From Nymphaea colorata (taxonomy: Eukaryota; Streptophyta; Magnoliopsida; Nymphaeales; Nymphaeaceae), in contig NC_045147.1 of assembly GCF_008831285.2 (NCBI RefSeq), positions 17,088,854-17,152,853 on the forward strand: a stretch of 64,000 nt of DNA, in the 5' to 3' direction. Both the position numbers and the translations under genes were made by a program. Under the pieces are notes generated by a model. It searched no databases, was not told the origin of the DNA, and was given only the letters and a program-made list of their open reading frames with translations. This document shows positions 3,283 through 58,525 of this stretch, piece by piece (within the stretch, counting starts at the first letter, position 1; each line of letters starts with the position of its first letter).

Positions 3283-3320
<38 letters not shown>

Positions 3321-8014: not shown

Positions 8015-8064
<50 letters not shown>

Positions 8065-15480: not shown

Positions 15481-15484
15481 TCTT

Positions 15485-18284: not shown

Positions 18285-18333
<49 letters not shown>

Positions 18334-18539: not shown

Positions 18540-19900
18540 TCCCGATGGAAGCCCAAAAGGTTTGTGATGTCATGTGAGCCTTGAAGACGTTGTTGCAAAA
18601 GATTCCTTGAGACTCTGACATGCACCTAAAAACACAAATACACATTAACTAAAGAGATCATCTTTAACACAATCAAACACATAATAAAGTCAACATTAAC
18701 TGCGAAAAATGGCATTTTACATAAATAAAACATGGAAAATAAGATAAAATCATGATACCATCAAAATGTTTTATCGGAAAACATGTTAGCATTTCCTCAG
18801 TATCTCATTTCTTCTGCTAATTGACCCTCTCTTTTGTGAGCACCTTACCTGTTAGCTGCTAGAGTTAAAAATGTGTTTTGTACGATAATTTGCCCAGAGG
18901 AGTGGTTGCAAAGGTTTAACCTCTTCTCCACAGAGCGCACATTATTCTTGTGCTTACAACCTGCGAGACTGCATGACGAAATCCATGGAGCAATCTTAAA
19001 AGGCAAGCAAGCTTACAGAGACCAATAGAAAGTGTTAGCAGACCAATAACGCGATCCCATGTTATTTATTTGCCAAAATCTTGCTGTCCTCCATCCGTCG
19101 GCCTTCACTAGCACTTGTCTTCTTATTCAATATTCCCAAGCATTTGATTTCCATTGGATTGCATGTTTCATGTTGACCAAAGTGACACTCGTGAAAAAAG
19201 CAAGCACCATTTGACGAGCAAGACTCCAGCAAAAGAAGACAAAGCCAAGGAGCACCAGGACGTTCGGTTGGAAAGTCTTTTAACAGGTCACCACATGGTC
19301 CACCCTTACTTCTTTACCTACAACTTTTCTATTTAGAGAAACAACTCGACTGATTTTTATTTGTTGATGATTTTGGGTTAGCCTAAAGATATTGGATCAA
19401 AGATCATGTGTAAGCTTCTTTTCTTAATGGGGGCAATAGAATGGGAGAACTCCAATGACATCATTCACCATCATTAGCAAATACCCAATGATTCCATGTT
19501 TCCTTTCTTTCTAATGCAACGATGTTTACAAGTGTTGCACTTGAGCTCTAATGAAGTACTGAGGACTCAAGAATAGAAGCTGATTGCATATATCATATGA
19601 AAACTTCTCCACGACATTCATGTGCCAAAAAAATGAAGCATATCAACTTCCTGAGTAAAGAAAAGATGTATAAACCACCAACTGAATAGTCGAGTGCAAT
19701 GGCATCCCATCCATCAGGCACTCGGCCTAGAGAAGGGATACCCAGTAGAGAATCAGAACTCCTGCAACCACCAACTTTTAAGCTTGAAAGATACTGCCTT
19801 AACTTCATACTGCAATCTGATAGACACAAATCAAGACAAGCGAGAAAACTTTGCCTTACAATAACATAATCCTTCACCCATACCTCTTTTTGTCTGTTTT
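18540..19900 (-). pseudogene. GCP4: Gamma-tubulin complex protein 4 relic, 3' exons
   Basis: Two exon-like stretches on the - strand resemble the C-terminal half of plant GCP4, a subunit of the microtubule-nucleating gamma-tubulin ring complex. At 19,900-19,630 the translation contains LGRVPDGWDAIALDYSV, which fits the conserved DGWDAIALEYSV segment. A shift of frame then gives HLFFTQEV, the next conserved block, so the exon carries a frameshift. At 18,625-18,540 the translation contains GSHDITNLLGFHRE, matching the DSHDFTELVGFHQE region; it follows a TTTTAG acceptor and ends at a GTAAGT donor. The exons expected between these two and the final exons were not found. The order and strand agree with the upstream exons at 54.9-56.4 kb. 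Identification rests on family recognition by eye. Confidence 0.75.
18626..19629. other. Interior of the GCP4 relic, no exon found
   Basis: The conserved GCP4 segment between the two recognised exons was looked for on the - strand and not found. An open frame of 60 codons at 19,154-19,336 (+) has no recognisable family. Confidence 0.4.
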
Positions 19901-21384
19901 ATGAGGACAGTGTCAACCAGACATGAATAAGATGATTGCTCAAGCATTCAGCTTTATATAGTAACTGTTACATCCTACAAGTTCTTTTTTTTTTTATGAT
20001 AATGCTTCGTTTGACCATCAGATGTATCCACGTCCTCACAATCATACAGTCTTCATATTGACTTTCCAAATCAATTGTTTAATAAACATTTAAAAGCCTC
20101 ACATACTCTAAAATTTTGAAATTTGTACCAAGCGCAGCTGGCAAGAAAGGCAATCACTAGCAGCAATCACTTGTTTAGGTTTCTCTTTTAAATGTATTAA
20201 ATGCAATAGGTGGCTTGGCACAAACTTGGAATCAAAATTCCACCTTAAATATGGGTTTCGAAGAAGAGAAGCCATGCAAGCATACTTATCCGTGCTTATT
20301 ATTTTTCATATTGTGACTTGCTGTGAAGGCCACTACTTTCTGCACTTCATACACATCAATGACAAGTGCATCAACTATACACTAATATTATTTATTTCCA
20401 GGAAAGCATGAAAAACAATTGAACAATACAAGATAAGGCAGTAACGTTTTTTTGTAACAAATGCCAAACCCTTTTGCACTGATTGATGCAAATTAATTGA
20501 AAGATATGCAAACCTATGGATAAAAATTTTTGCACATTAATAAAATTACTCGGTGTTCAATTATGAAAATGTGTGCATACCTTCTCGTATATGATATCCT
20601 AGACTGGTGAAAGGCAAGCTAAAACAAATCTGTAAGAAGAGCAAGATAAACTAACAAGCAAATGAAAGGAGGTTATTGCCATCCAGATATCCCAATGACA
20701 ATATACATGCATTTAGAATCTTATGCGCACATCCACATGATGTTATCATGCAAAGTACTAAACAATGCAGCCTACTCTTAGAGCACTTCTTTGCACGGTG
20801 ACAACTAAATTTGATAGGTTTTATGTAATTTATCTAGCCTAAAATGAGTTAACCACTTTACCCAGTAGAGAATCAGAACTCCTGCAACCACCAACTCGTA
20901 AAATTAATTTTTTAATTTTAAAAAGTATTTAAAAATAAGAAAAAATAGAGAAAAATCATTAAAAATCTGAAAAAATGAACAAAAAAATAAAAAATCAAGA
21001 AAAAAGTATTGAAATATAAAAAAGATTATCATACATAAGAAACATTCATGTATATCAAATTATCAACAACACATTCAAAAATAAGAAATTAGAAATACAA
21101 AATAACATAATAAGCATCCATCACAATTTTAAACTTGAAAATTTTATAGAATCTTAGGACTTAGAGCCTTAAGACTTGGAGTTTTAGGACTTCGATTACA
21201 TCACAATTTAAAACATATAGTTATCATCTTTCATGATTCAACGATAATATCTCTCAAATCAATGAATCATCGGTTATTTTTTATGAAAATGAGCAAAATC
21301 TCTCCCTCCTATGTCTCTTGGAGTCTTTAAATAGAAGAAGAGAGAGATGGACAAGTGTCTAAACTTTCAAAAAAAAAAAGTGTT
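19901..21384. other. Flank between GCP4 3' exons and the satellite
   Basis: No gene was recognised. It contains a 38-base exact copy of part of the GCP4 exon at 20,859-20,896, followed by A/T-rich, poly-A-like sequence. Confidence 0.5.
20859..20896. repeat. 38-bp copy of a GCP4 exon fragment
   Basis: These 38 bases, including CCCAGTAGAGAATCAGAACT, are identical to 19,739-19,776 inside the GCP4 exon and in the same orientation. The flanks differ at once on both sides. It looks like filler DNA copied during break repair. Confidence 0.9.
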
Positions 21385-21585
21385 TTAACCCGTATTGTAC
21401 GATACGGGGGTGTATCGCACGTACCGTGCGATACCGCCACCGTATCGCACGATACGCGTACGATACGGACGCGTATCGCACGATACGCGTACGATACGGA
21501 CGCGTATCGCTTATCAAACACGTATCGTATAGGTTTCTTCGACCTATACGATACGCGTCTGTATCGTACGATACGGATAACATTG
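21385..21585. repeat. CpG-dense palindromic CGTATCG block
   Basis: A GC-rich island in AT-rich DNA made of CGTATCG/CGATACG motifs in both orientations. A 31-base unit starting CGTATCGCACGATACGCG is tandemly repeated at 21,441 and 21,472 and restarts at 21,503. A perfect 14-base hairpin, CGTATCGTATAGGT with its complement, spans 21,521-21,555 around a 7-base loop. It directly borders the satellite array. Confidence 0.85.
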
Positions 21586-23396
21586 ATAAAAACAGATCTT
21601 TGTTCAAAAGATAAAGATTTAAATGTTGGAATTGGGCTTTGAAAATAGGATTTCAATCAGAGTTCTAATCTGATCGGTTTTAGATGTTGGATTTAGTTTT
21701 TTGGGCTAAATCTGAATTCCTAATCCATCCCTCGACATGATGTCGAATGACTTTCAAACATCCCAATACACAATCAAGGACATTGTAATGAAAATATATC
21801 TTTGTCTAAAGCTAAAGATTCTAATTTTCCATTGTAGACATATATCAAATATGAACTCTTCAATACAAGCTCTTTTGATGGGGATATCAAAGTTAACTTT
21901 CTACCACCTGCATGTCCTAATCTTTCATGCAACAATCTTTTTGGCAACATTATACAAAGAATCAATTGAAATCATAAATTGTTCATATAATTTACAGCTC
22001 CCCTTCTAAAACTATCTCCAAGCAAATTCCCGAACCAATGATCCTACAACCAACATTTATCTAATCATAGAATAACAACATAGCCATGATACAAAATTTG
22101 GCAAATATAAAAAATAATCAAAAGGGTATTTGGATGAACGATTAAATTTACATTTGATCGTACATGAAGTGGGGTTGGATCAAAGATCCAATCTCATCTA
22201 GATGTGGTATTGAATTTGGCCACGAGATTTACAATTTGAATCAAACATTAGACCTGTTTTACTTGTATTTTGGTTTTAGATCAATGATTCAAAACCCAGG
22301 CCTAATATGACCAGCTTCAAATGTTGGATATGAATGTTGAACATACGATCTAAATCAGAAGCATAATCAAAACCTGGTTTAGATGTTATATTTGACTTTT
22401 GCATCACGACTCTAGATCAGAGGTCTAATCTAATCTGGTTAAGATGTTGGAATTGGGCTTCGAAAATGGAGTTTTGATCAAAGGTCTAATCAAATCGCTT
22501 TTAGAAGTTAGATTTTAATTTTTGATCCAAGGTGTGGATAGGAGGTCTAATCTAATTTGGTCAAAATGTTGATTTTGGGTTAAATTTGAATTCCTAATAC
22601 ATCCCTTGACATGGTGCGGGCAGACTTTCAAACATGAAAATAAACAATCAAGAAGAAGTGACTTGTGCATCACGACTCTAGATGAGAGGTCTAATATGAT
22701 TTGGTTAACATGTTGGAATGGAGCATTGAAAACAGGGTTTTGATCATAGGTCCAATCTAATCGGTTTTAGATGTTGGATTTCAGTTTTAGATTCAAGGAG
22801 TGGATCGAAGGTCAAATCTAATTTGGTCTAAATGTTGGACTTAAATTTTGGGCAAAATTACATTTCCTAATTCATCCCCTGATACGATGTGGAGACCTTC
22901 AAACGTCCCAACAAACAATTAAGGAAGACATTGTAATCAAAACATATCTTTGTCCAAAGTTAAAGATTTTAATTTCCCAATGTAGACATATATCAAATAT
23001 GAATCCTTCAATACAAGCTCAGTGGATAGGGATATCAAAGTTAAATTTCTCGACCAACTGCATATCTAAATCTACGGTTAACCAATCTTTTTGGCAAAAC
23101 TATACAAACAATCATTACAGATCATAAATTGTTCATATAATTTAAAGCTCCTTTACCAAAACTGTCTCCAAGCAACTTCTTGAACCGGCGAACCAACAAC
23201 CAACTTTTATCTAATCACATGATAACATCATAGTCGTGATCTAACATTTGGCGGACCTAAAAAAATAATCAAATGGGTATTTTCATAAACGACCAAATTT
23301 ACATTAGATCGTACATGAATTGAGTTGGATCAGAGGTCTTATCTAACCCGGATTTGGCGTTGAATTCAGACTAGAGATTTACAATGTGGATCAAAC

Positions 23397-23650
23397 AATC
23401 ATTGGACATCTCGAGGGTAAAACAAAGGCTCCACCAATATCCGTTTTACAGGAAATAAAAAATGAGGCGGGAGAAGTTATTGTTGTTCACGAAGACAACA
23501 ATCCTGAACATGCTATGTGGATGAGACGTGACCAAAGTCTGGTTGCATATATTTTGTCCACTTTATCTCAACAAGTGTTACTTTCAGTTTCTGATGATTG
23601 TACTGCAGAAGAATTATGGGAAACCCTTGCTGATACCTTTTCCCAAATAT
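23397..23650 (+). mobile_element. Captured copia gag fragment inside a satellite monomer
   Basis: The + frame from about 23,386 encodes a piece of a copia-type Gag, including DQSLVAYILSTLSQQVLL and a TAEELWETLADTFSQIS segment, typical of the UBN2/retrotrans_gag region. It resembles but clearly differs from the gag of the element at 31.3 kb, so it comes from another family. Satellite sequence stops at GGATCAAACA on the left and resumes at ATATCAAAATTAACTTTCTA on the right. No LTRs, primer-binding site or pol are present. Confidence 0.85.
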
Positions 23651-24058
23651 CAAAATTAACTTTCTAGATACTACACGTCTAAATCTATGATAAACCAATC
23701 TTTTCGGCAAAACTATACAAACAATCATTGGAGATCCTAAACTGTTCATATAATTTAAAGCTCCTTCCCTAAAACTGTCTCCAAGCAACTTTCTGAAGCA
23801 ACGATCCTTGAACCAACTTTTATCCAATCACAGGATAACATCATAGCCATGATCCAACTTTTGGCAAACCTAAAAAATAATCAGATGGGTATTCTCATGA
23901 ACCACCAAATTTGCATTAGATCTTATCTCACCCGGATTTTGTGTTAAATTCAGAACAAAGATATACAATTTGGATCAAACATCTAATCTCATGAGTTTGG
24001 TTTTAGATCAAGTATTCGAAACGCATGCCTAATATGATTTGCTTCAAGCTTTGAATTT

Positions 24059-24303
24059 GAAGGTTGAACGTACGATCTAAATCACAAGCATAATTAAAAT
24101 CAGGTTTAGAAGTTGGATTTGACTTTTCCATCACGTCTATAGATCAGAGGTCTAATCTGATCTGGTTTAGATGTTGGAATTGGGCATTGAAAACAAGGCA
24201 TTGATCAGAGGTCTAACCTGATCGGTTTTAGATGTTGGATTTCCGTTTTAGATTCAAGGTGAGGATCGAAGGTCAAATCTAATTTGGTCTAAATGTTGGA
24301 CTT
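24059..24303. repeat. Example of the ~61-bp sub-repeats within a monomer
   Basis: Four consecutive segments, 24,059-24,120, 24,121-24,181, 24,182-24,242 and 24,243-24,303, are 62, 61, 61 and 61 bases long and each ends in (A)GTTGGATTT, TGTTGGAATT, TGTTGGATTT or TGTTGGACTT. The middle two share GATCAGAGGTCTAA and C(T)GATC. Less regular 63-66-base segments precede them in most monomers. Confidence 0.85.
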
Positions 24304-27300
24304 AGATTTTGTGCAAAATCGGATTTCCTAATCCATCCCTTGCTAGGATGTGGACAGACTTTCAAACATCCCAACAAACAATCAAGGAGGACATTGTAAT
24401 GAAAACATATTTTTCTCCAAAGATAAAGATTCCAATTACCCCATGAAGACATATATCAAATACGAAACCTTCAACACAAGCTCTTTGGATGGGGATATCA
24501 AAGTTAACTTTCTACCAACTGCATGTCAAAATCTTTGATAAACCAATCTTTCTGGCAAAACTACACAAACAATCTTTGATAAACCAATCTTTTCGACAAA
24601 ACTATACAAACAATCATTAGAGATCATAAATTGTACACATAATTTAAAGATCCTTTCCTAAAACTGTCTCCAAGCAACTTTCTGAACCGGCGATCCGACA
24701 ACCAACTTTTATCTAATCACAGGATAACAACATAGCCATGATGCAACTTTTCGCGAACCTAAAAAATAATCAGATGGGTATTCCCAAGAACGACCAAATT
24801 TGCATTAGATCGTACACAAATTGAGTTGGATCAGAGGTCTTATCTGACCCAGATTTGGTGTCGAATTCAGACTAGAGATATACAATTTGGATCAAACATC
24901 TAATCTGGCCTGGCATAGTTGTTGGAGTTTCGTTTTAGATCAAGGATTCGAAACACAGGCCCAATATGATTTGCTTCAAACTTTGAATTTGAAGGTCGAA
25001 CATACGATCTGAATCACAAGCATAATTAAAATCTGGTTTAGAAGTTGGATTTGACTTTCGCGTCACGTCTCTAGATCAGAGGTCTAATCTGATCTGGTTG
25101 AGATGTTGGAATTGGGCATTGAAAACAAGGTTTCGATCAGAGGTCTAACCCGATCGGTTTTATATGTTGGATTTCTGTTTTAGATTCAAGGTGAGGATCG
25201 AAGGTCAAATCTAATTGGGACTAAATGTTGGACATAGATTTTGGGCAAAATAGGATTTACTAATCCATCCCTTGATATGATGTGGACAGACTTTCAAACA
25301 TCCCAACAAACAATCAAGGATGACATTGTAATGAAAACATATTTTCCTCCAAAGATAAATATTCCAATTACCACAAGTAGACATATATCAAATACGAAAC
25401 CTTCAATACAATCTCTTTGGATGGGGATATCAAGATTAACTTTCCACATACTACATGTCTAAATTTATGATAAACCAATCTTTTCGACAAAACTATACAA
25501 TCAATCATTGGAGATCATAAATTGTACACATAATTTAAAGATCCTTTCCTAAAACTGTCCCCAAGCAATTTTCTGAACCGGCGATCCGACAACCAACTTT
25601 TATCTAATCACAGGACAACAACATAGCCATGATCCAACTTTTCGCGAACCTAAAAAATAATCAGATGGGTATTCCCATGAACGACCAAATTTGCATTAGA
25701 TCGTACACGAATTGAGTTGGATCAGAGGTCATATCTGACCCGGATTTGGTGTTGAATTCAGACTAGAGATATACAATTTGGATCAAACATCTAATCTGGC
25801 CTGGCATAGTTGTTGGAGTTTGGTTTTAGATCAAGGATTCGAAACACAGGCCCAATGTGATTTGCTTCAAACTTTGAATTTGAAGGTCGAACATACGATC
25901 TGAATCACAAGCATAATTAAAATCTGGTTTAGAAGTGGGATTTGACTTTCGCGTCACGTCTCTAGATCAGAGGTCTAATCTGATCTGGTTGAGATGTTGG
26001 AATTGGGCATTGAAAACAAGGTTTCGATCAGAGGTCTAACCCGATCGGTTTTATATGTTGGATTTCTGTTTTAGATTCAAGGTGAGGATCCAAGGTCAAA
26101 TCTAATGGGACTAAATGTTGGACATAGATTTTGGGCAAAATAGGATTTACTAATCCATCCCCTGATATGATGTGGACAGACTTTCAAACATCCCAACAAA
26201 CAATCAAGGATGACATTGTAATGAAAACATATTTTCCTCCAAAGATAAATATTCCAATTACCCCAAGTAGACATCTATCAAATACAAAACCTTCAATACA
26301 ATCTCTTTGGATGCGGTTATCAAGATTAACTTTCTACATACTACATGTCTAAATCTATGATAAACCAATCTTTTCGACAAAACTATACAAACAATCATTG
26401 GAGATCATAAATTGTACACATAATTTAAAGACCCTTTCCTAAAACTGTCCCCAAGCAACTTTCTGAACCGGCGATCCGACAACCAACTTTTATCTAATCA
26501 CAGGACAACAACATAGCCATGATCCAACTTTTCGCGAACCTAAAAAATAATCAGATGGGTATTCCCATGAACGACCAAATTTGCATTAGATCGTACACGA
26601 ATTGAGTTGGATCAGAGGTCTTACCAGACCCGAATTTGGTGTTGAATTCAGACTAGAGATATACAATTTGGATCAAACATCTAATCTGGCCTGGCATAGT
26701 TGTTGGAGTTTGGTTTTAGATCAAGGATTCAAAACACATGCCCAATGTGATTTGCTTCAAACTTTGAATTTGAAGGTCGAACATACGATCTGAATCACAA
26801 GCATAATTAAAATCTGTTTTAGAAGTGGGATTTGACTTTCGCGTCACGTCTCTAGATCAGAGGTCTAATCTGATCTGGTTGAGATGTTGGAACTGGGCAT
26901 TGAAAACAAGGTTTCGATCAGAGGTCTAACACGATCGGTTTTATATGTTGGATTTCTGTTTTAGATTCAAGGTGAGGATCGAAGGTCAAATCTAATTTGG
27001 TCAAAATAGGATTTACAAATCCATCCCTTGATATGATGTGGACAGACTTTCAAACATCCCAACAAACAATCAAGGATGACATTGTAATGAAAACATATTT
27101 TCCTCCAAAGACAAATATTCCAATTACCCCAAGTAGACATATATCAAATACGAAACCTTCAATACAATCTCTTTGGATGGGGATATCAAGATTAACTTTC
27201 CATATACTACATGTCTAAATCTATGATAAACCAATCTTTTCGACAAAACTATACAAACAATCATTGGAGATCATAAATTGTACACATAATTTAAAGATCC

Positions 27301-30300
27301 TTTCCTAAAACTGTCCCCAAGCAACTTTCTGAACCGGCGATCCGACTACCAACTTTTATCTAATAACAGGACAACAACATAGCCATGCTCCAACTTTCGC
27401 GAACCTAAAAAATAATCAGATGGGTATTCTCATGAACGACCAAATTTGCATTAGATCGTACACGAATTGAGTTGGATCAGAGGTCTTACCTGACCCGGAT
27501 TTGGTGTTGAATTCAGACTAGAGATATACAATTTGGATCAAACATCTAATCTCGCCTGGCATAGTGGTTGGAGTTTGGTTTTAGATCAAGGATTCGAAAC
27601 ACAGGCCCAATGTGATTTGCTTCAAACTTTGAATTTGAAGGTCGAACATACGATCTGAATCACAAGCATAATTAAAATCTGGTTTAGAAGTGGGATTTGA
27701 CTTTCGCTTCACGTCTCTAGATCAGAGGTCTAATCTGATCTGGTTGAGATGTTGGAATTGGGCATTGAAAACAAGGTTTCGATCAGAGGTCTAACCCGAT
27801 CGGTTTTATATGTTGGATTTCTGTTTTAGATTCAAGGTGAGGATCCAAGGTCAAATCTAATGGGACTAAATGTTGGACATAGATTTTGGGCAAATAGGAT
27901 TTACTAATCCATCCCCTGATATGATGTGGACAGACTTTCAAACATCCAACAAACAATCAAGGATGACATTGTAATGAAAACATATTTTCCTCCAAAGATA
28001 AATATTCCAATTACCCCAAGTAGACATCTATCAAATACAAAACCTTCAATACAATCTCTTTGGATGCGGTTATCAAGATTAACTTTCTACATACTACATG
28101 TCTAAATCTATGATAAACCAATCTTTTCGACAAAACTATACAAACAATCATTGGAGATCATAAATTGTACACATAATTTAAATATCCTTTCCTAAAACTG
28201 TCCCAAGCAACTTTCTGAACCGGCGATCCGACAACCAACTTTTATCTAATCACAGGACAACAACATAGCCATGATCCAACTTTTCGCGAACCTAAAAAAT
28301 AATCAGATGGGTATTCCCATGAACGACCAAATTTGCATTAGATCGTACACGAATTGACTTGGATCAGAGGTCTTATCTGACCCGGATTTGGTGTTGAATT
28401 CAGATTAGAGATATACAATTTGGATCAAACATCTAATCTGGCCTGGCATAGTTGTTGGAGTTTGGTTTTAGATCAAACATCAATATGATTTGCTTCAAAC
28501 TTTGAATTTGAAGGTCGAACATACGATCTGAATCACAAGCATAATTAAAATCTGGTTTAGAAGTTGGATTTGACTTTCGCGTCGCGTCTCTAGATCAGAG
28601 GTCTAATTTGATCTGGTTGAGATGTTGGAATTGGGCATTGAAAACAAGGTTTCGATCAGAGGTCTAACCTGATCGGTTTTATATGTTGGATTTCTGTTTT
28701 AGATTCAAGGTGAGGATCGAAGGTCAAATCTAATTTGGTCAAAATATTGGACATAGATTTTGGGCAAAATAGGATTTACTATTCCATCCCTCGATATGAT
28801 GTGGACAGACTTTCAAACATCCCTACAAACAATCAAGGATGACAATGTAATGAAAACATATTTTCCTCCAAAGATAAAGATTCCAATTACCCCAAGTAGA
28901 CATATATCAAATACGAAACCTTCAATACAAGCTCTTTGGAAGGGGATATCAAAATTAACTTTCTAGATACTACACGTCTAAATCTATGATAAACCAATCT
29001 TTTCGGCAAAACTATACAACCAATCATTGGAGATCTGAAACTGTTCAAATAATTTAAAGCTCCTTTCCTAAAACTGTCTCCAAGCAACTTTCTGAAGCAA
29101 CGATCCTTGAACCAACTTTTATCTAATCACAGGATAACATCATAGCCATGATCCAACTTTTGGCAAACCTAAAAAATAATCAGAAGGGTATTCTCATGAA
29201 CCACCAAATTTGCATTAGATCTTATCTCACCCGGATTTTGTGTTAAATTCAGAATAAAGATATACAATTTGGATCAAACATCTAATCTCATGAGTTTGGT
29301 TTTAGATCAAGTATTCGAAACGCATGCCTAATATGATTTGCTTCAAGCTTTGAATTTGAAGGTTGAACGTACGATCTAAATCACAAGCATAATTAAAATC
29401 AGGTTTAGAAGTTGGATTTGACTTTTCCATCACGTCTCTAGATCAGAGGTTTAATCTGATCTGGTTTAGATGTTGGAATTGGGCATTGAAAACAAGGCAT
29501 TGATCAGAGGTCTAACCTGATCGGTTTTAGATGTTGGATTTCCGTTTTAGATTCAAGGTGAGGATCGAAGGTCAAATCTAATTTGGTCTAAATGTTGGAC
29601 TTAGATTTTGTGCAAAATCGGATTTCCTAATCCATCCCTTGCTATGATGTGGACAGACTTTCAAACATCCCAACAAACAATCAAGGAGGACATTGTAATG
29701 AAACACATTTGTCTCCAGAGATAAAGATTCCAATTACCCCGTGAAGGCATATATCAAATACGAAACCTTCAACACAAGCTCTTTGGATGGGATATCAAAG
29801 TTAACTTTCTACCAACTGCATGTCGAAATCTTTGATAAACCAATCTTTCTGGCAAAACTATACAAACAATCTTTGATAAACCAATCTTTCTGGCAAAACT
29901 ATACAAACAATCATTGGAGATCATAAATTGTACATATAATTTAAAGCTCCTTTCTTAAAACTGTCTCCAAGCAACTTTCTGAAGCGGCGATCCTACAACC
30001 AACTTTTATCTAATCACAAGATAACATCATAGCCATGATCCAACTTTTGGCTAACCTAAAAAATAATCAGATCGGTATTCCCATGAACGACCAAATTTGC
30101 ATTAGATCGTACACGAATTGAGTTGGATCAGAGGTCTTATCTGACCCGCATTTGGTGTTGAATTCAGACTAGAGATATACAATTTGGATCAAACATCTAA
30201 TCTGGCCTGGCATAGTTGGAGTTTGGTTTTAGATCAAGGATTCAAAACACAGGCCCAATGTGATTTGCTTCAAACTTTGAATTTGAAGGTCGAACATACG

Positions 30301-31265
30301 ATCTGAATCACAAGCAAAATTAAAATCTGGTTTAGAAGTTGGATTTGACTTTCGCGTCACGTCTCTAGATCAGAGGTCTAATCTGATCTGGTTGAGATGT
30401 TGGAATTGGGCATTGAAAACAAGGTTTCGATCAGAGGTCTAACCCGATCGGTTTTATATGTTGGATTTCTGTTTTAGATTCAAGGTGAGGATCGAAGGTC
30501 AAATCTAATTGGGACTAAATGTTGGACATAGATTTTGGGCAAATAGGATTTACTAATCCATCCCTTGATATGATGTGGACAGACTTTCAAACATCCCAAC
30601 AAACAATCAAGGATGACATTGTAATGAAAACATATTTTCCTCCAAAGATAAATATTCCAATTACCCCAAGTAGACATCTATCAATTACAAAACCTTCAAT
30701 ACAATCTCTTTGGAAGGGGATATCAAGATTAACTTTCCACATACTACATGTCCAAATCTTTGATAAACCAATCTTTTCGACAAAACTATACAAACAATCA
30801 TTGGAGATCATAAATTGTACACATAATTTAAAGATCCTTTCCTAAAACTGTCCCCAAGCAATTTTCTGAACCGGCGATCCGACAACCAACTTTTATATAA
30901 TCACAGGACAACAACGTTGCCATGATCCAACTTTTCGCGAACCTAAAAAATAATCAGATGGGTATTCCCATGAACGACCAAATTTGCATTAGATCGTACA
31001 CGAATTGAGTTGGATCAGAGGTCTTATCTGGCCCGGATTTGGTGTTGAATTCAGATTAGAGATATACAATTTGGATCAAACATCTAATCTGGCCTGGCAT
31101 AGTTGTTGGAGTTTGGTTTTAGATCAAGGATTCGAAACACAGGCCCAATGTGATTTGCTTCAAACTTTGAATTTGAAGGTCGAACATACGATCTGAATCA
31201 CAAGCAAAATTAAAATCTGGTTTAGAAGTTGGATTTGACTTTCGCGTCACGTCTCTAGATCAGAG

Positions 31266-31540
31266 TGTTAGCGTATGGGGATCGGGTCTGTTCAGACCCG
31301 ATCCATTCTCCTTATATCCACACGCCTAAAGTTACTAGGCGGTGGCTCTCTTGTAATTTTTTATCCTTTTATGTACAAATCTGTTGTAACCTATTAGGGT
31401 TATTCTTTAATTAAAGATTAAGGAACGCAGGGCTGTGTTAAGCCGGCTGCTCCCTTTCCTCCATCGTCTTCTTTCATCCTCTCTTCTCAACATATCTGTT
31501 TTGCATACAGAGAGACGAGTACTTTGTGAAGATTCTTACA
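31266..31540 (+). repeat. 5' LTR of the copia element
   Basis: 275 bases beginning TGTTAGCG and ending TTACA, directly before the primer-binding site. A copy begins at 35,943. It includes a short inverted repeat, GATCGGGTCTG/CAGACCCGATC. Confidence 0.9.
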
Positions 31541-31552
31541 TGGTATCAGAGC
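31541..31552 (+). other. Primer-binding site (initiator-Met tRNA type)
   Basis: TGGTATCAGAGC immediately follows the LTR. This is the usual plant copia primer-binding sequence. Confidence 0.9.
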
Positions 31553-31759
31553 CAGGTTGCATCGTCCTCCGGTGAGTGATTTCAGTTGATGTGATTAGCC
31601 CTAATCTGCCCTAAATTCTTTCTTTTCTGCCGTGATCATCCCTCTTTTCAGTTTCTGCCCTAAATCTTGCATGATTTACCCTATTTGATTTGCCCTAATC
31701 GTTGTGCCCTAATCTTCTCATCGTTTTGCCCTAATTTTTGTCGTTGCCCTAAATCAATT

Positions 31760-32653: not shown

Positions 32654-32819
32654 AGTGAGAATGTTGGCACAACCCGCAGAACAAAAATAATCAGATTAGA
32701 CGTGAGAACAAGGCAGCAGCAGGGTCAGCTTCATCATCATCTGGATCTAATGTTTCAGCAGACGTACAACAACTCCTCATGACAGCCCTGTCTAAGCTTC
32801 ATTTGAAACAAAACGAGCA

Positions 32820-35800: not shown

Positions 35801-35896
35801 GAAGAAGCCGAGATCTTGCCTACTTATATATCTACCAATGAACAGATAGCTGATCTTTTACCAAAGGTCTCACAGGGCAGCATTTTTGGGATTTGA
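32820..35896 (+). pseudogene. pol: Disrupted copia pol (protease-integrase-RT-RNase H)
   Basis: Domains appear in the expected copia order but in shifting frames with stops between them. The longest open pieces are 32,972-33,277, 33,526-33,738, 34,609-34,893, 35,197-35,394 and 35,648-35,896. The protease DSGA, integrase DGGGEF, reverse transcriptase YVDD and RNase H TDADWAGDP motifs are all still readable, which indicates disruption by small indels rather than loss of domains. Confidence 0.85.
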
Positions 35897-35942
35897 AGAA
35901 CAAGTTGTGCATGATCAAATCTCATGCACAACTTGAGGGAGC

Positions 35943-45200: not shown

Positions 45201-48200
45201 TTCAAGCTTTGAATTTGAAGGTTGAACGTACGATCTAAATCACAAGCATAATTAAAACCAGGTTTAGAAGTTGGATTTGACTTTTCCATCACGTCTCTAG
45301 ATCAGAGGTCTAATCTGATCTGGTTTAGATGTTGGAATTGGGCATTGAAAACAAGGCATTGATCAGAGGTCTAACCTGATCGGTTTTAGATGTTGGATTT
45401 CCGTTTTAGATTCAAGGTGAGGATCGAAGGTCAAATCTAATTTGGTCTAAATGTTGGACTTAGATTTTGTGCAAAATCGGATTTCCTAATCCATCCCTTG
45501 CTATGATGTGGACAGACTTTCAAACATCCCAACAAACAATCAAGGAGGACATTGTCATGAAAACATATTTGTCTCCAAAGATAAAGATTCCAATTACACC
45601 ATGAAGACATATATCAAATACGAAACCTTCAACACAAGCTCTTTGGATTGGGTTATCAAATTTAACTTTCTACCAATTGCATGTCGAAATCTTTGATAAA
45701 CCAATCTTTCAGGCAAAACTATACAAACAATCTTTGATAAACCAATCTTTCCGACAAAACTATACAAACAATCATTGGAGATCATAAATTGTACACATAA
45801 TTTAAAGATCCTTTCCTAAAACTGTCTCCAAACAACTTTCTGAAGCGGCAATCCGACAACCAACTTTTATTTAATCACAGGATAACAACATAGGCATGAT
45901 CCAAATTTTCGCGAACTTTAAATATAATCAGATGGGTATTCCCATGAACGACCAAATTTACATTAGATCGTACACGAATTGAGTTGGATCAGAGGTCTTA
46001 TCTGACCCGGATTTGGTGTTGAATTCAGACTTGAGATATACAATTTGGATCAAACATCTAATCTGGCCTGCCATAGTTGTTGGAGTTTGGTTTTAGATCA
46101 AGGATTCGAAACACATGCCCAATATGATTTGCTTCAAACTTTGAATTTGAAGGTTAAACATACGATCTGAATCACAAGCATAATTAAAATCTGGTTTAGA
46201 AGTTGGATTTTACTTTCGCGTCACGTCTCTAGATCAGAGGTCTAATCTGATCTGGTTGAGATGTTGGAACTGGGCATTGAAAACAAGGCTTCGATCAGAG
46301 GTCGAACCCGATCGGTTTTATATGTTGGATTTCTGTTTTAGATTCAAGGTGAGGATCGAAGGTCAAATCTAATTGGGACTAAATGTTGGACATAGATTTG
46401 GGCAAAATAGGATTTACTAATCCATCCCTTGATATGATGTGGACAGACTTTCAAACATCCCAACAAACAATCAAGGATGACATTATAATGAAAACATATT
46501 TTCCTCCAAAGATAAATATTCCAATTACCCCAAGTAGACATATATCAAATATGAAACCTTCAATACAATCTCTTTGGATGGGGATATCAAGATTAACTTT
46601 CTACATACTACATGTCTAAATCTATGATAAACCAATCTTTTCGACAAAACTATACAAACAATCATCGGAGATCATAAATTGTACACATTATTTAAAGATC
46701 CTTTCCTAAAACTGTCCCCAAGCAATTTTCTGAAACGGCGATCCGACAACCAACTTTTATCTAATCACAGGACAACAACATAGCCATGATCCAACTTTTC
46801 GCGAACCTAAAAAATAATCAGATGGGTATTCCCATGAACGACCAAATTTGCATTAGATCGTACACGAATTGAGTTGGATCAGAGGTCTTATCTGACCCGG
46901 ATTTGGTGTTGAATTCAGACTAGAGATATACAATTTGGATCAAACATCTAATCTGGCCTGGCATACTTGTTGGAGTTTGGTTTTAGATCAAGGATTGGAA
47001 ACACAGGCCCAATATGATTTTCTTCAAACTTTGAATTTGAAGGTCGAACATACGATCTGAATCACAAGCATAATTAAAATCTGGTTTAGAAGTTGGATTT
47101 GACTTTCGCGTCGCGTCTCTAGATCAGAGGTCTAATCTGATCAGGTTGAGATGTTGGAATTGGGCATTGAAAACAAGGTTTCGATCAGAGGTCTAACCTG
47201 ATCGGTTTTATATCTTGGATTTCTGTTTTAGATTCAAGGTGAGGATCGAAGGTCAAATCTAATTTGGTCAAAATATTGGACATAGATTTTGGGCAAAATA
47301 GGATTTACTAATCCATCCCTCGATATGATGTGGACAGACTTTCAAACATCCCTACAAACAATCAAGGATGACAATGTAATGAAAACATATTTTCCTCCAA
47401 AGATAAAGATTCCAATTACCCCAAGTAGACATATATCAAATACGAAACCTTCAATACAAGCTCTTTGGAAGGGGATATCAAAATTAACTTTCTAGATACT
47501 ACACGTCTAAATCTATGATAAAGCAATCTTTTCGGCAAAACTATACAAACAATCATTGGAGATCCGAAACTGTTCAAATAATTTAAACCTCCTTTCCTAA
47601 AACTGTCTCCAAGCAACTTTCTGAAGCAACGATCCTTGAACCAACTGTTATCTAATCTCAGGATAACATCATGGCCATGATCCAACTTTTGGCAAACCTA
47701 AAACATAATCAGATGGGTATTCTCATGAACCACCAAATTTACATTAGATCTTATCTCACCCGGATTTTGTGTTAAATTCAGAATAAAGATATACAATTTG
47801 GATCAAACATCTAATCTCGTGAGTTTGGTTTTAGATCAAGGATTCGAAACACATGCCTAATATGATTTACTTCAAGCTTTGAATTTGAAGGTTGAACGTA
47901 CGATCTAAATCACAAGCATAATTAAAACCAGGTTTAGAAGTTGGATTTGACTTTTCCATCACGTCTCTAGATCAGAGGTCTAATCTGATCTGGTTTAGAT
48001 GTTGGAATTGGGCATTGAAAACAAGGCATTGATCAGAGGTCTAACCTGATCGGTTTTAGATGTTGGATTTCCGTTTTAGATTCAAGGTGAGGATCGAAGG
48101 TCAAATCTAATTTGGTCTAAATGTTGGACTTAGATTTTGTGCAAAATCGGATTTCCTAATCCATCCCTTGCTATGATGTGGACAGACTTTCAAACATCCC

Positions 48201-51200
48201 AACAAACAATCAAGGAGGACATTGTCATGAAAACATATTTGTCTCCAAAGATAAAGATTCCAATTACACCATGAAGACATATATCAAATACGAAACCTTC
48301 AACACAAGCTCTTTGGATTGGGTTATCAAATTTAACTTTCTACCAATTGCATGTCGAAATCTTTGATAAACCAATCTTTCAGGCAAAACTATACAAACAA
48401 TCTTTGATAAACCAATCTTTCCGACAAAACTATACAAACAATCATTGGAGATCATAAATTGTACACATAATTTAAAGATCCTTTCCTAAAACTGTCTCCA
48501 AACAACTTTCTGAAGCGGCAATCCGACAACCAACTTTTATTTAATCACAGGATAACAACATAGGCATGATCCAAATTTTCGCGAACTTTAAATATAATCA
48601 GATGGGTATTCCCATGAACGACCAAATTTACATTAGATCGTACACGAATTGAGTTGGATCAGAGGTCTTATCTGACCCGGATTTGGTGTTGAATTCAGAC
48701 TTGAGATATACAATTTGGATCAAACATCTAATCTGGCCTGCCATAGTTGTTGGAGTTTGGTTTTAGATCAAGGATTCGAAACACATGCCCAATATGATTT
48801 GCTTCAAACTTTGAATTTGAAGGTTAAACATACGATCTGAATCACAAGCATAATTAAAATCTGGTTTAGAAGTTGGATTTTACTTTCGCGTCACGTCTCT
48901 AGATCAGAGGTCTAATCTGATCTGGTTGAGATGTTGGAACTGGGCATTGAAAACAAGGCTTCGATCAGAGGTCGAACCCGATCGGTTTTATATGTTGGAT
49001 TTCTGTTTTAGATTCAAGGTGAGGATCGAAGGTCAAATCTAATTGGGACTAAATGTTGGACATAGATTTGGGCAAAATAGGATTTACTAATCCATCCCTT
49101 GATATGATGTGGACAGACTTTCAAACATCCCAACAAACAATCAAGGATGACATTATAATGAAAACATATTTTCCTCCAAAGATAAATATTCCAATTACCC
49201 CAAGTAGACATATATCAAATATGAAACCTTCAATACAATCTCTTTGGATGGGGATATCAAGATTAACTTTCTACATACTACATGTCTAAATCTATGATAA
49301 ACCAATCTTTTCGACAAAACTATACAAACAATCATCGGAGATCATAAATTGTACACATTATTTAAAGATCCTTTCCTAAAACTGTCCCCAAGCAATTTTC
49401 TGAAACGGCGATCCGACAACCAACTTTTATCTAATCACAGGACAACAACATAGCCATGATCCAACTTTTCGCGAACCTAAAAAATAATCAGATGGGTATT
49501 CCCATGAACGACCAAATTTGCATCAGATCGTACACGAATTGAGTTGGATCAGAGGTCTTATCTGACCCGGATTTGGGGTTGAATTCAGACTAGAGATATA
49601 CAATTTGGATCAAACATCTAATCTGGCCTGACATAGTTGTTGGAGTTTGGTTTTAGATCAAGGATTGGAAACACAGGCCCAATATGATTTGCTTCAAACT
49701 TTGAATTTGAAGGTCGAACATACGATCTGAATCACAAGCATAATTAAAATCTGGTTTAGAAGTGGGATTTGACTTTCGCGTCACGTCTCTAGATCAGAGG
49801 TCTAATCTGATCTGGTTGAGATGTTGGAACTGGGCATTGAAAACAAGGTTTCGATCAGAGGTCTAACCCGATGGGTTTTATATGTTGGATTTCTGTTTTA
49901 GATTCAAGGTGAGGATCGAAGGTCAAATCTAATTTTGTCAAAATATTGGACATAGATTTTGGGCAAAATAGGATTTACTAATCCATCCCTCGATATGATG
50001 TGGACAGACTTTCAAACATCCCTACAAACAATCAAGGATGACAATGTAATGAAAACATATTTTCCTCCAAAGATAAAGATTCCAATTACCCCAAGTAGAC
50101 ATATATCAAATACGAAACCTTCAATACAAGCTCTTTGGAAGGGGATATCAAAATTAACTTTCTAGATACTACACGTCTAAAACTATGATAAACCAATCTT
50201 TTCGGCAAAACTATACAAACAATCATTGGAGATCCTAAACTGTTCATATAGTTTAAAGCTCCTTTCCTAAAACTGTCTCCAAGCAACTTTCTGAAGCAAC
50301 GATCCTTGAACCAACTTTTATCTAATCACAGGATAACATCATGGCCATGATCCAACTTTTGGCAAACCTAAAAAATAATCAGATGGGTATTCTCATGAAC
50401 CACCAAATTTACATTAGATCTTATCTCACCCGGATTTTGTGTTAAATTCAGAATAAAGATATACAATTTGGATCAAACATCTAATCTCGTGAGTTTGGTT
50501 TTAGATCAAGGATTCGAAACACATGCCTAATATGATTTACTTCAAGCTTTGAATTTGAAGGTTGAACGTACGATCTAAATCACAAGCATAATTAAAACCA
50601 GGTTTAGAAGTTGGATTTGACTTTTCCATCACGTCTCTAGATCAGAGGTCTAATCTGATCTGGTTTAGATGTTGGAATTGGGCATTGAAAAGAAGGCATT
50701 GATCAGAGGTCTAACCTGATCGGTTTTAGATGTTGGATTTCCGTTTTAGATTCAAGGTGAGGATCGAAGGTCAAATCTAATTTGGTCTAAATGTTGGACT
50801 TAGATTTTGTGCAAAATCGGATTTCCTAATCCATCCCTTGCTAGGATGTGGAAAGACTTTCAAACATCCCAACAAACAATCAAGGAGGACATTGTAATGA
50901 AAACATATTTTTCTCCAAAGATAAAGATTCCAATTACCCCATGAAGACATATATCAAATACGAAACCTTCAACACAAGCTCTTTGGATGGGGATATCAAA
51001 GTTAACTTTCTACCAACTGCATGTCGAAATATTTGATAAACCAATCTTTGATTAGTTGGATCAGAGGTCTTATCTGACCCGGATTTGGTGTTGAATTCAG
51101 ACTAGAGATATACAAATTGGATCAAACATCTAATGTGGCTTGGCATAGTTGTTGGAGTTTGGTTTTAGATCAAGGATTCGAAACACAGGCCCAATATGAT

Positions 51201-53850: not shown

Positions 53851-54079
53851 GGGCCATCACTGGTTGCCTTGAATATGCCTCAGTTTTGGTTATTGAGATG
53901 CGGAATCATTTAAATTTTTGTATTGTTCCCAAGTCTATATGTGGTAAGTACTTTCTCTTATTCTTTGGTTAGATGAACTCTACATTCATTTTTGCACAAA
54001 CTTACATTGTGTTTGGTTGACACTCCAAAATGGGGTTTTGAGATGCAAAACCTTGTTTTGCCTCACAAGCCTTATTTTT

Positions 54080-54757
54080 GGGGTGTTTGGATGACAGCAA
54101 ACTGGATTTTTAAGAACCTCAATTTTGCTCAAAACATGGTTGAAACCAGTTTTTTAAAAACCTGCTCCCCCATAGATTTTTCACCCCAGAGGCAGGTCTG
54201 GTACAGTTTTATGTCTACACTTAGAAAAATCTATGAACTTGGTTAGCATTTTTAAACGTATGTTAATTCTAAATATACTACAAGTTCTCAATTCATGGAT
54301 CCTCTTATTTTCAACTAGTAACATATATGAAATCATTATGCATTTTTTATAATAATTGAGGTAGTTATAAATGTGCTTGGTGGTTTGGTTTATCAAAGGA
54401 ACCTGATGATCAGTTTGATAGAAATTTGTAAATCAACCCTGCTCTAAGGATAATTTTAGCAAGAATCTTAAAATCTAGGTGCCTTAATGAAGATTGGTAG
54501 GCAGAGTTTCTTGGTGGTGGTATAATGGGTGATTGTATTTGTTCAACTATCATTTGGTTGTATTTAACACTCAACTGAACTTGATTCCTAGAGGCTTCAT
54601 ATAAACCAGGTTTTTGTCATCCAAACAAATGCCACGTTTAAAAGATAAAAACTTGGTTTCCTATTGTAATCCAAGCAGACAAACCAGGTAAATGAAGTTT
54701 AACAAAACCTGGTTTCCCTATAACCTGGTTTTAAGAGGGTGTCATCCAAACACCCCC
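54080..54757. mobile_element. TIR element (~680 bp) with GGGGTGTTTGGATGACA ends
   Basis: GGGGTGTTTGGATGACA at 54,080-54,096 is matched by its reverse complement at 54,740-54,756. The interior has several AACCTGGTTT-type motifs in both orientations and no convincing coding capacity. A related GTGTTTGGTTGACACTCCAA lies just outside at 54,008. This fits a non-autonomous DNA transposon, possibly nested. Confidence 0.6.
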
Positions 54758-54858
54758 TTGATATTGTCTCAACCCCCCACTTGATTTTGTAATAATTTCA
54801 TGAGCTGGAGTGGGAGGAAAATGAACAGTTAAAAGAACAGTCCTAGCTTGTTCATGAG

Positions 54859-54860
<2 letters not shown>

Positions 54861-54899
<39 letters not shown>
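54861..54899. repeat. (GT)n microsatellite
   Basis: About 19 uninterrupted GT dinucleotides just downstream (on the - strand) of the GCP4 exon at 54,929-55,020. Confidence 0.95.
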
Positions 54900-54902
<3 letters not shown>

Positions 54903-54928
54903 ACAACTATATTGCTAACAGCCCTCAC

Positions 54929-56440
54929 CTGCCAACAATGACCAGTTGCGGTCATGCGAATGGAGTCAACAGCATGTTTGAATGCCCTCTTATCAAACTC
55001 GGGAAACTCATGCAAGAGATCTAAAAGCAGAAAAATTTTGTTGCAAAATAGCACAAGCAAGAAAAGCAACTGACTGCAAACTGTAACTTTTTTCGTATGT
55101 CTATCATAAAGCCTAATTCACACATAAAAATCACAATATATTAAGGAGAACATGTTGCATTCAAAGTTTCAAACAATACTAACATGTGAAGGAAAATAAA
55201 GATGGACGGTGGGTACCTTTAACTTTTGAAGCATACCAACAATTTTATCCACTTCAAATTGAGGGAGCAATTCTTCTCCAACAAATTAATGTCAATACAA
55301 GGCCCCTGAGGAAAGCATCCAAACAGTCCCTGATATCTATTGGATCCTCTTGGAACTCCATGATGAAAAACATCAGCCTCAAACCTGAAAGGAGGACAAG
55401 GGTTTCTTAAAGCCCTTATTGCCTCCCCAGAGAAAAGTATGGATTCAGCAACCCGCATATGGATATATTCTTGTTGCACAACCTGCACTGTGAAGCATGG
55501 TGCATACTTGCATAAGACATGGAATACATAACAAGTTGACGCACCAGAACAAACAAAACAGCAAAAGTTTTATAACATTTCCATTTGCAAAAGGTAGTCA
55601 AGCTGAACAGTCTTCAAGAAGTAAACAACCCCTGATGTATGTGTCAAATAGGTCTAAGGTACAACAGAAAAATATTACAAAAATGTGTGTTTGAACGAGA
55701 AAGCAAATCTGGTTCAATGTTATGGCCCATTTGAAGAAAAAGTTTGTTCCCTCGTATCTAGGTTAAAACCGAAACAATCACCATCAAAGGTTGGCTGCTT
55801 TGAGAAAACAAAGTCTTTTCAATATTTAGTATAATGGACAATATTGCTTGACTTGCTTAAGAAGTCAATGAAATAGAGGTAAAAATTAAGAAGCTTGAAT
55901 AATTTAAGGATTTAAAGGATAGATGCCCATCAAAGGGACGAAAAAGCAGAAAGTAAAACAAAATTTTGCACAAAGACATAATCAAAAGTCCTAAGTCACA
56001 TGATTTGAAATTTCAACACTTCAAATTGCACATGAAGATTATAAAACCAACAGTCGAATGTAGCAACTAATGTTTCATCTCTCAAGGCTCGAGGAAATAT
56101 ACCAAGAAAACATGGAATCCTGAGTTCCAATTTGTCAAAGACGCATGCAAAATGCACTTACATATCAGGCACTTCAATTTTTGAATTGGCAAAAACAGTC
56201 CAAGATGCTGACACAAGGCGCTGTACGTTCATTTTTCAGTTCAGCAATTGGAAAGACCGCTAAAAAAAACTGTCAATCCTAGTGATTATTCAACCTTCTG
56301 TACCTCCTAATAAAAAAATTTCCATATGATCGTGAAGAAGTCCATGAACCATCCAGGCTTCTAGTTGCCGATACATGACCTGATGCCCTAACAAGGAAGC
56401 CTGGTAAATGTACGAAGGTGAATCGCAGATTAGCTACTGT
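54929..56440 (-). pseudogene. GCP4: Gamma-tubulin complex protein 4 relic, upstream exons
   Basis: Three exon-like stretches on the - strand read in order as plant GCP4. Near 56,436-56,304 the translation includes GHQVMYRQLEAWMVHGLL, then a one-base shift leads to FFIRR. The part before GHQVMY also needs a frame change. At 55,482-55,217 the exon reads EYIHMRVAESILFSGEAIRA and continues to an SNRYQGLFG segment; then a frameshift gives VGEELLPQFEVDKI before a GTACCC donor. At 55,020-54,929, after a TTTTAG acceptor, it reads [18 protein letters not shown] and ends WQ before GTGAGG. At least three frameshifts make this a pseudogene. GCP4 normally sits in the gamma-tubulin ring complex that nucleates microtubules. 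The N-terminal exons were not found. Confidence 0.85.
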
Positions 56441-56920
56441 AAGTATTTGAAAGACCCATTTGTAGTTGAAGACAAGAAGACATAAGTGAGTTACACATAT
56501 CATGACAAAAAAAAGGTACATGAAAAAACATCATATATGTTCCTCATCAGGAGATGCATGCGCTAGGAATAGATGCAACCAACTTAGCTATTCTTGATTT
56601 TCAAATATTCCTAGCACCCAAAAAAAATCAAGTACTTAAGAAGAGTTGATAAAGTTAGATTGATGGACTTTACACCCTACCAGTCAAAACACACAAACTT
56701 AGTTGCCACACCTTCCCAATCTAAATAGGCAAGTAAATAAAGAAATTCAGTCTGAACCTTTACATACAAGCTTCCAACAAATGATGATTAAGGGGGTGTT
56801 TGATAAGAAGAATATTTAGTTTTTGAAGCTTATATATGTATTTGAACTGAACATCATGTCCTTTTCTAAAACAATACGTGATTATATTTAACATTTGACT
56901 GTTGAATGTAGAAACAACAT

Positions 56921-56975
<55 letters not shown>

Positions 56976-57800
56976 TATTAGGTTTACAAGGACACAAACG
57001 TTCGTAAACCACTACACCTAAGTAGTGTACTTTTTCAAGGTTCTTCTATCAAAGAAAAAAATCCATTTTTAGGCACATCTTTTGCCCACAGTCAAGAAAT
57101 TAGAACCAATATCTTTTATCCCAAATGCAGAAGAGAAGGAGCTTATGGAGGAAAAGTAGGGACATCTAGTAACGCATAAAGGTGAAGTATGAGACAGACC
57201 AATAAGGACTGATCACTACAGCTGTCATCAAGCCCTTGATCAGACTTTAATTGTTGTGGCCACTACCCATTTCCCAAGTTAAAACTATTCAGATATGCAT
57301 ACATATACAACATCCCTTGATCGAGAGGTACCAACCAAAGAGTTTTACCGCTGCTTGCAAAAGGGTTCAGGCTCATATTTTCCTTTGAAGCAGTCTTCCA
57401 GGGGAAAAAGGTAATCAAAGTAAGTTAAGAAGTGCTCACTCAACTGGTAATTAAGAAACAATTTATAAAAGAATTCAAATTGATTTAACAAAATAAAATC
57501 AACTCTGTAAAATGCATGTATGCTATCACTTTGGCACTAATGAGTAAGACAAATTTCTATGAGTTTTACTGGTCAGAGCAGTTCTGCAGAGGAAGCAAAC
57601 TAAAGAATAAGTGACCTTACAAAGACAGGTAAATTCAGTAAGTTCTGCAGAGAAAGCAATTAACTAAAAAAGTTCTCCAAAGGAAGCAAACTGAGGAAGA
57701 CTGGTAAATTCTACCTGAACATGGCAGTCATGGAACCTAGGCATAACAAGCACATATGCGGAGGAAAATGACCTGCTCTGGCTGTTGATCCAGCAAAACC
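56441..57800. other. Region where GCP4 N-terminal exons would be expected, none seen
   Basis: The conserved plant GCP4 N-terminus was looked for on the - strand and not found. The stretch holds an AT microsatellite and otherwise unremarkable AT-rich sequence. Confidence 0.45.
56923..56972. repeat. (AT)n microsatellite
   Basis: About 25 uninterrupted AT dinucleotides. Confidence 0.95.
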
Positions 57801-58525
57801 ATACACAGACAGTGAAAAAGGGAGAGGGAGAGATGAACCCGCCTAAAAAAAAAAACATGACGATACACTCAGAAAAAAAAAACTCGTAAGGAAATAACAG
57901 AGGAAACAGAAAAATATCAAAGGAAGAGGAGTAAGAGGGTGCGCACCTTACTTAGACAGATGAGGGCCTGAGAGACGAGAACCGAAGCTTAGGAAGCGGC
58001 CGCGCAGTTGCAGTAGCTTCGCACCGACGAAAGCAGTAGCTGAGGAGCTGCAGGCGGGTGAAAAGGAGAAGGGAGGAAGCGGAGGAGCAGGTGGAGCAGT
58101 AGGGAACCCCCGCTCAGGCTCGAGATCGAAACCCGTGGAGAATTACTAGATGGGCGAAACCCTACCGAGAAAAGAATCCGGCGGCGGTCGACGAACCCCA
58201 GGCCCAGTCGGCTAGAGACCGGCGATTCCGACGGATTGGAGCCGGACTTCCTGCCGCCGGAAGGTGATTTTGGGTGGCTGAAACCCTAATGCTTCGTTTT
58301 CCTCTTCGAAGCTTCGATCCCGAAAAACGCCACACAGACAGTGAAACAGAGAGATGGAGAGATGACCGCGCGCAAAAAAGGGAGAAAATATGAGACTCTC
58401 GGAAAAAATTCTCCCAAGGCAAAAAAAAAAAAAAAAAAAAAGAGGAAACAGAAGGAGTAGGAAAAAGAGGGCGCGCACCTTACAGAGACAAATTAGGGCC
58501 TGAGAGACGAGAACCGAAGCTTATG
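57800..58525 (-). promoter_or_regulatory. Duplicated 5' non-coding exon / promoter region of GCP4
   Basis: Two related segments (about 57,800-57,995 and 58,330-58,525) are offset by ~532 bases. Both, read on the - strand, contain AAGCTTCGGTTCTCGTCTCT and CAGGCCCT followed by a GTAAGGTGCGC donor-like site (splice points near 57,952 and 58,484). The GC-rich stretch between them carries AAACCCTAAT at 58,281, a telobox-type motif frequent upstream of plant housekeeping genes. The likeliest reading is a first non-coding exon duplicated in tandem, serving the GCP4 locus on the same strand. Confidence 0.6.

Follow-up and report, generated by a model that had tools for sequence, protein, structure and literature searches.

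A satellite array within a broken GCP4 copy of Nymphaea colorata and its relatives on other chromosomes

Satellites growing from tandem repeats inside dispersed elements are already known (PMC7004042, PMC7492417). In Lathyrus sativus, satellites have grown from short tandem repeats in Ogre long terminal repeat (LTR) retrotransposons (PMC7004042), and in the Pacific oyster the satellite-like repeats of Cg_HINE are carried by Helentrons (PMC7492417). Here we describe a window of 64,000 nucleotides from Nymphaea colorata (C10:17,088,854-17,152,853, at 17.1 of the 24.9 Mb of C10) in which a satellite array stands between two parts of a copy of the gene GCP4. Searches covered a genome of 407.8 Mb in 783 contigs. 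We consider it likely, and hold this with good confidence, that a GCP4-satellite compound was copied to many sites as pseudogenes and that its satellite seed was then amplified separately at each of them.

The likeness to the Lathyrus satellites is that a dispersed unit would bring a short tandem array to many sites, some of which become long satellites. The difference is that the carrier is a compound flanked by GCP4 pseudogene parts, not an Ogre element, and that its gene flanks match those of sister arrays. With Cg_HINE the locus has in common dispersed elements with central tandem repeats and conserved flanks, but here neither a Helentron nor a Helitron end was recognised, the flanks derive from a gene and the arrays reach tens of kilobases. 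The copies also resemble unprocessed plant pseudogenes, with introns kept, exons lost, small insertions or deletions (indels) and an intact parent; unlike these, the copies related to the one in the window have one internal replacement by a satellite seed in common. No description of a split gene copy acting as a carrier, with sister arrays in homologous flanks, was found in titles and abstracts of the open literature, and no title or abstract there brought GCP4 together with a satellite, although the terms gamma-tubulin complex, pseudogene and satellite DNA all appear in one paper on B chromosomes (PMC7509943).

The satellite array and the two parts of GCP4

Self-comparison of the window and nhmmer gave 36 satellite matches between 21,619 and 53,864, every one in + orientation. 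The monomer is about 890 bp long and contains subrepeats of about 61 bp around the motif GATCAGAGGTCTAATCTGATC, and in part of the array three monomers form a higher-order unit of 2,670 bp. At this period, window 43,061-48,379 and 45,729-51,049 are 98.6% identical, and copies reach about 100% identity. The array has the form of satellite DNA, a long head-to-tail series of homogenised copies (36 matches in 32 kb, with a mean identity of 92.6% among the 28 long ones).

The GCP4 parts were located by tblastn with a GCP4 protein as query, to which all amino acid (aa) numbers refer. Eight matches, all on the minus strand, lie on both sides of the array in transcript order (best E 7e-13), as the sequence-only reading of this DNA had proposed. 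Those before the array are at 56,388-56,293 (aa 207-239), 56,141-56,103 (weak alone, E 0.27), 55,470-55,306, 55,279-55,217 and 55,042-54,881, the last before the satellite; those after it are at 19,763-19,680 (DGWDAIALDYSV), 19,677-19,645 and 18,601-18,539 (weak alone, E 0.21). Three more matches elsewhere in the window, with E of 3.1-9, are noise, and the reversed window gave a best E of only 3.1. On the other side, Pfam scans of seven window pieces gave no GCP domain and a PDB search with one piece gave no relative, the pieces being short and degraded.

An ancestral gene copy turned pseudogene had been supposed, and an apparently intact GCP4 gene is indeed present elsewhere, at C10:21.7126-21.7271 Mb, 4.6 Mb from the window on the same chromosome. 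It covers aa 1-743 of the query, and the sole stretch with stops in its alignment is a run through an apparent intron. Compared with this gene by blastn, the window copy has retained both exonic and intronic sequence, at 77-89% identity: window 54,908-56,777 corresponds to gene 11,418-14,603 (77-84%), window 19,645-20,859 to gene 6,748-9,456 and window 17,793-19,380 to gene 2,089-5,021. Because exons and introns on both sides align to the intact gene, the two halves belong to one GCP4 copy, in agreement with the earlier proposal. At the array, gene 9,456-11,418 (about 2.0 kb) is absent, including the exons for aa 393-421 and 421-452, so that the intervening region noted as missing is missing in fact; the exon for aa 448-469 and other parts are lacking further along. 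The array had been explained either by expansion within an intron or by replacement of an exon. The second explanation stands, since, judged by the alignment, the array replaces part of the GCP4 copy and more than merely resides in an intron.

Exons of the window copy agree with the intact gene at 677 of 770 sites (87.9%) and introns at 2474 of 2877 (86.0%), and the aligned exons carry 24 gap columns. The exon identity, hardly above that of the introns, fits the expectation for a pseudogene. With its introns retained and exons missing while an intact-looking parent exists, the window copy appears as an unprocessed pseudogene, to the extent that comparison of sequences can establish this.

The length of about 32 kb first given for the array holds for the assembly, where it runs from 21.6 to 53.9 kb, but a gap lies inside it. 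The array is interrupted by a Ty1/Copia element on the + strand (31,266-36,127) and then directly by a scaffold gap of 100 N (36,128-36,227), which cuts the 3' LTR of the element. Its assignment rests on the domains Retrotran_gag_2, rve and RVT_2 and on comparison with the unplaced contig C315, in which LTRs of 275 bp with one mismatch were read; a 5-bp target-site duplication, CAGAG, lies in the satellite motif. Compared with the array, the Copia element is a recent arrival. C315 is 38,559 bp long, of which 37,762 were read and contain no N; it has satellite at both ends and ends before GCP4. Its positions 178-12,726 match window 23,653-36,127 at 98.6%, with the same Copia insertion, and 23,476-37,720 match window 36,228-50,489 at 98.9% in the longest placement, other array offsets also matching well. 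From the Copia element to the point that matches the right side of the gap, C315 holds about 10.7 kb of satellite. Since it crosses the gap with this much more satellite, array and Copia element together probably measure about 43 kb in the window. The simplest reading of C315 is an alternative haplotype that fills the gap; it may instead be a recent duplicate. The two copies of the Copia element (window 31263-36127 and C315:7763-12726) differ by 4 mismatches against 102 gap columns, which suggests indel errors in the assembly at this element.

Copies of the broken gene and their arrays

GCP4 pieces of the broken form were found at nine other places (C12:18.72, C7:8.90, C1:17.38, C9:13.8, C8:15.37, C1:36.16, C1:37.28, C14:9.07 and C8:14.54 Mb). 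Satellite lies close to GCP4 in eight of the ten copies, window included (at C1:37.28 it is about 7 kb from the GCP4 part), and is flanked by GCP4 on both sides in five (C10, C12, C1:17.38, C9 and C1:36.16). At C12, C1:17.38, C9 and C1:36.16 the sequence between the two sides was read in part, and C14 was seen as coordinates only. The 5' part of GCP4 stops at gene 11418 in six of the seven copies read there (C10, C12, C1:17.38, C1:37.30, C1:36.16 and C8:15.38) and at 11412 in C9. On the 3' side, GCP4 begins again at gene 9916 in three copies (C7, C8:15.37 and C8:14.54) and at 9939 in C9; in C10, C12 and C1:17.38 this edge lies further in, which we take to be loss at a later time. C10, C12 and C7 also lack the same two stretches, gene 8551-7602 and 7523-6982. 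In a tree of the 5' part, C10, C12, C1:17.38, C1:37.30 and C9 form one clade (support 100/99), its members 0.08-0.115 apart and 0.16-0.18 from the intact gene. From the shared breaks, the shared internal losses and this clade, the insertion into GCP4 is best read as a single early event. The same compound with the same 11418 break on other chromosomes indicates that the seed entered GCP4 before the copies spread. The exons flanking the window array had been offered as a boundary for dating its expansion; they date the copying and not the growth of the array.

The arrays have grown apart. We compared 40 monomers of at least 600 model positions, 28 from the window, 3 from C12, 3 from C1:17.38, 5 from C7 and 1 from C8; C1:37.29 had no monomer of this length and stands outside the matrix. 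Mean identity within an array is 92.6% in C10, 93.9% in C12, 96.8% in C1:17.38 and 81.9% in C7, against 67-81% between loci, so the monomers are site-specific. The value for C7 lies near its between-locus values, which suggests that C7 retains an unhomogenised ancestral array. Unit lengths also vary by array (173, 878, about 880 and 890 bp). At C12, between 18.724 and 18.742 Mb, successive sites of a monomer tag are 878 bp apart with few interruptions; among the sites listed there are then none for 5.7 kb, followed by five less regular ones to 18.751 Mb. In C9, 173-bp units derived from monomer positions 460-628 form an array that separates the two GCP4 halves, and at C1:36.16 a 744-bp tandem gives way to 61-bp units. 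The 24-base tag (up to 3 mismatches) occurs at 112 sites in the genome, with none in the reversed control, and 97 of the 100 sites listed are at GCP4-copy loci, C315 counted.

The whole compound in the window extends, on the minus strand, from 59,191 to 14,255, the outermost two points common to the C12 copy, beyond which the stretches read differ. It opens with the left end TTTTATGTGACGTTGTGTAACATGACATAA (59,162-59,191, minus), recognised by a 23-base core, within a 5' segment that is not GCP4 (57,119-59,191, minus) and is partly common to C12, C3, C1:17.38, C1:37.28 and C9. The GCP4 5' part (54,908-56,777, minus; exons and introns for aa about 207-394, gene 14603-11418, by tblastn and blastn) is followed by a spacer from the GCP4 break at 11418 to the satellite (53,865-54,907, minus), which is found in C12, C7 and partly in C1:37 and C1:17.38 and is absent from the intact GCP4 gene. 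Past the array, an unstranded dispersed repeat of about 690 bp (20,896-21,586), listed at 17 further places at 82-92% identity, occupies the interval to the GCP4 3' part (17,793-20,859, minus; gene 9456-2089 with internal losses, by tblastn and blastn). An unstranded inverted-repeat element is inserted in the compound at 15,482-17,787, the C7 copy having the site without the element, and a final stretch of GCP4 homology by blastn (gene 2086-1967) lies at 15,381-15,481, minus.

A GCP4 exon piece (aa about 629-686), mostly with one in-frame TGA, occurs at more than ten further places (C362, C11, C8, C15, C4 and others) and seems to be another dispersed repeat carrying a GCP4 exon. The GCP4 stretch at window 56261-57118 recurs at 80-84% at C1:32.50, 32.56, 32.59, 33.54 and 13.08 Mb; close to each of these sites is part of the tandem stretch found after GCP4 at C1:36.16. 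In the 3' part of the C7 copy, the first stretch of GCP4 is closely followed by an unrelated 71-bp tandem array (C7:8.9106-8.9111 Mb). In the window, two UDP-glycosyltransferase (UGT)-like copies at 9382-10395 and 61697-62764 bracket the whole compound in direct orientation at 85-87% DNA identity; the first matches PF00201 and a piece of the second gave no Pfam match. The compound may lie within a UGT tandem cluster. A clean tandem array of 7.9 copies of a 77-bp unit is found at 1206-1814.

How the compound may have arisen and spread

We infer the order of events, the process of amplification and the way of copying as follows. In a genomic GCP4 copy with introns, about 1.5 kb of the middle (gene 11418-9916, including the aa 393-421 exon) would have been replaced by two spacers with a short tandem-repeat seed between them. 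The compound would then have been copied to many chromosome sites as pseudogenes, and at each site the seed would have been amplified and homogenised by unequal exchange or recombination of a similar kind. In the window the outcome would be the array of about 43 kb, Copia element included, with its 2,670-bp higher-order unit and the recent entry of the Copia element. Breakpoints, orientation, internal losses and the left end are held in common.

Several results weigh against this reconstruction. The C8 sequence is 0.17-0.22 from the other copies, as distant as from the intact gene. No satellite was found within the 5 kb read at C8:14.54; at C8:15.38 the 5' part ending at 11418 sits beyond the 3' part and no satellite follows it within 4 kb; and at C1:37.28-37.30 the pieces lie inverted and dispersed across 20 kb. 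For the compound, a target duplication having two defined ends was not established, and most arrays were read in part only. Satellite relatives with no GCP4 detected close by lie at C1:14.13-14.18, C4:25.79, C8:13.10, C8:14.76 and C12:14.51-14.59 Mb, and another, at C1:13.02-13.05 Mb, is about 31 kb from a GCP4-derived stretch.

As for the way of copying, ordinary segmental duplication or non-allelic recombination between chromosome regions has, in our view, close to an even chance of being correct. The copies are few, their right ends are ragged, C1:37.28 carries inversions and the C8 halves are misplaced; against it stands the same left end, to about ten bases, shared by four sites that differ largely in their outer sequence.

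This left end is also what would speak for the compound having moved as a DNA transposon or a comparable mobile element with captured GCP4 sequence and tandem repeats of its own, a reading we hold to be credible but rather less probable than its opposite. The 23-base core (up to 2 mismatches) occurs at five places in 408 Mb (C10, C12, C3, C1:37.28 and C1:36.16) and nowhere in the reversed control, and among the four sites whose outer flanks were read, those of C10, C12 and C3 have no meaningful match among themselves. Introns are kept, copies lie on C1 (three), C7, C8, C9, C10, C12 and C14, and both tandem-repeat-carrying Helentrons (PMC7492417) and satellite-seeding retroelements (PMC7004042) are described in published work. 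Against this, no terminal inverted repeat of the left end was found in the window or the fetched loci, no Helitron-type end was recognised by eye, and no right end common to the copies was found in the loci compared. Nor is there a clear target duplication; a 10-bp repeat was seen in C3 and C12. Outside the left end, C12, C3 and C1:37.28 have about ten extra bases in common (GGCTTGTTT-like) that the window is without, and the outer flanks of C10 and C1:37.28 hold a 25-bp piece of the same dispersed repeat, so that the true left end is not fixed. C3, finally, has the left end with GCP4 undetected. As a candidate for terminal inverted repeats of the compound, one weak inverted match of 53 bp at 75% (window 58.7 and 14.2 kb) was considered and rejected, being absent from C12. 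The dispersed repeat just outside the left end (window 59192-59404) recurs at 12567-12807 in the same orientation.

An assembly artefact, in which GCP4 halves from different places were joined through repeats, could be suspected from the 100-N gap, but we regard it as very unlikely, since the N-free C315 (37.8 kb read) has the window's left part, the same Copia element together with the target duplication, and sequence matching the right part, and the C12 copy independently has both GCP4 halves around its satellite. Least probable of all, and to be set aside, is that the satellite expansion in this GCP4 pseudogene, first supposed from a window that alone presents one broken gene and one array, is single, local and private to this locus: the same break, satellite and orientation recur at C12:18.72-18.75, C1:17.38 and further loci, and the C12 copy already refutes it.

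An origin of the monomer in GCP4 introns was rejected, as unfiltered nhmmer gave a best E of 3.4 in the intact gene and a wider profile gave no match there at 1e-3. At C10:21.7022-21.7043 Mb, 8-10 kb past the 3' end of the intact gene, there is diverged satellite, likewise in antisense orientation (best E 3.7e-56). Adjoining it, C10:21.7048-21.7055 is 76% identical to the spacer found after GCP4 at C1:36.16, and order and orientation are the same at the two places. This type of spacer also adjoins GCP4 at C14 and precedes satellite at C8; the second spacer was not found beside the intact gene in the C10:21.70 Mb region. From this arrangement, an origin of the seed beside the working GCP4 is an attractive possibility. 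We tentatively suggest, while thinking it somewhat more apt to be wrong than right, that a seed from 8-10 kb past the GCP4 3' end was fused into a duplicate of GCP4, after which the compound became a self-dispersing or readily copied satellite-planting unit.

We gave up the idea of a satellite restricted to GCP4 copies once relatives were found without GCP4 close by; the satellite family as a whole is thus not confined to GCP4. Immediate flanks of these relatives were read at C4, C1:14.13 (left), C8:14.76 and C12:14.51 only, and about 100 of 549 sites were listed in one scan. An earlier scan, which scored 13 of 178 candidates and left the window's array unlisted, was not used for counts. Related satellites at C1:13.02-13.05, C1:14.13-14.18, C4:25.785-25.799 and C8:14.76 Mb differ in the spacing of their sites, which on C1 is about 1.27 and 2.08 kb.

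Arrays with matched surroundings

The start of a satellite and its growth at a given site are hard to study, arrays usually having no datable, matched surroundings. Here homologous pseudogene flanks link several arrays to one ancestral insertion and supply a clock from outside the array, and array length, unit length, homogenisation and decay become comparable site by site. In the Discussion of PMC7004042 the spread of tandem arrays by mobile elements is called a kind of natural experiment on what favours satellite growth. If a seed from beside the working GCP4 did give rise to such a copied compound, Nymphaea colorata would offer such an experiment in replicate: one seed, with the same gene flanks, at several sites, with outcomes from no array seen to one of about 43 kb, and with differing units.

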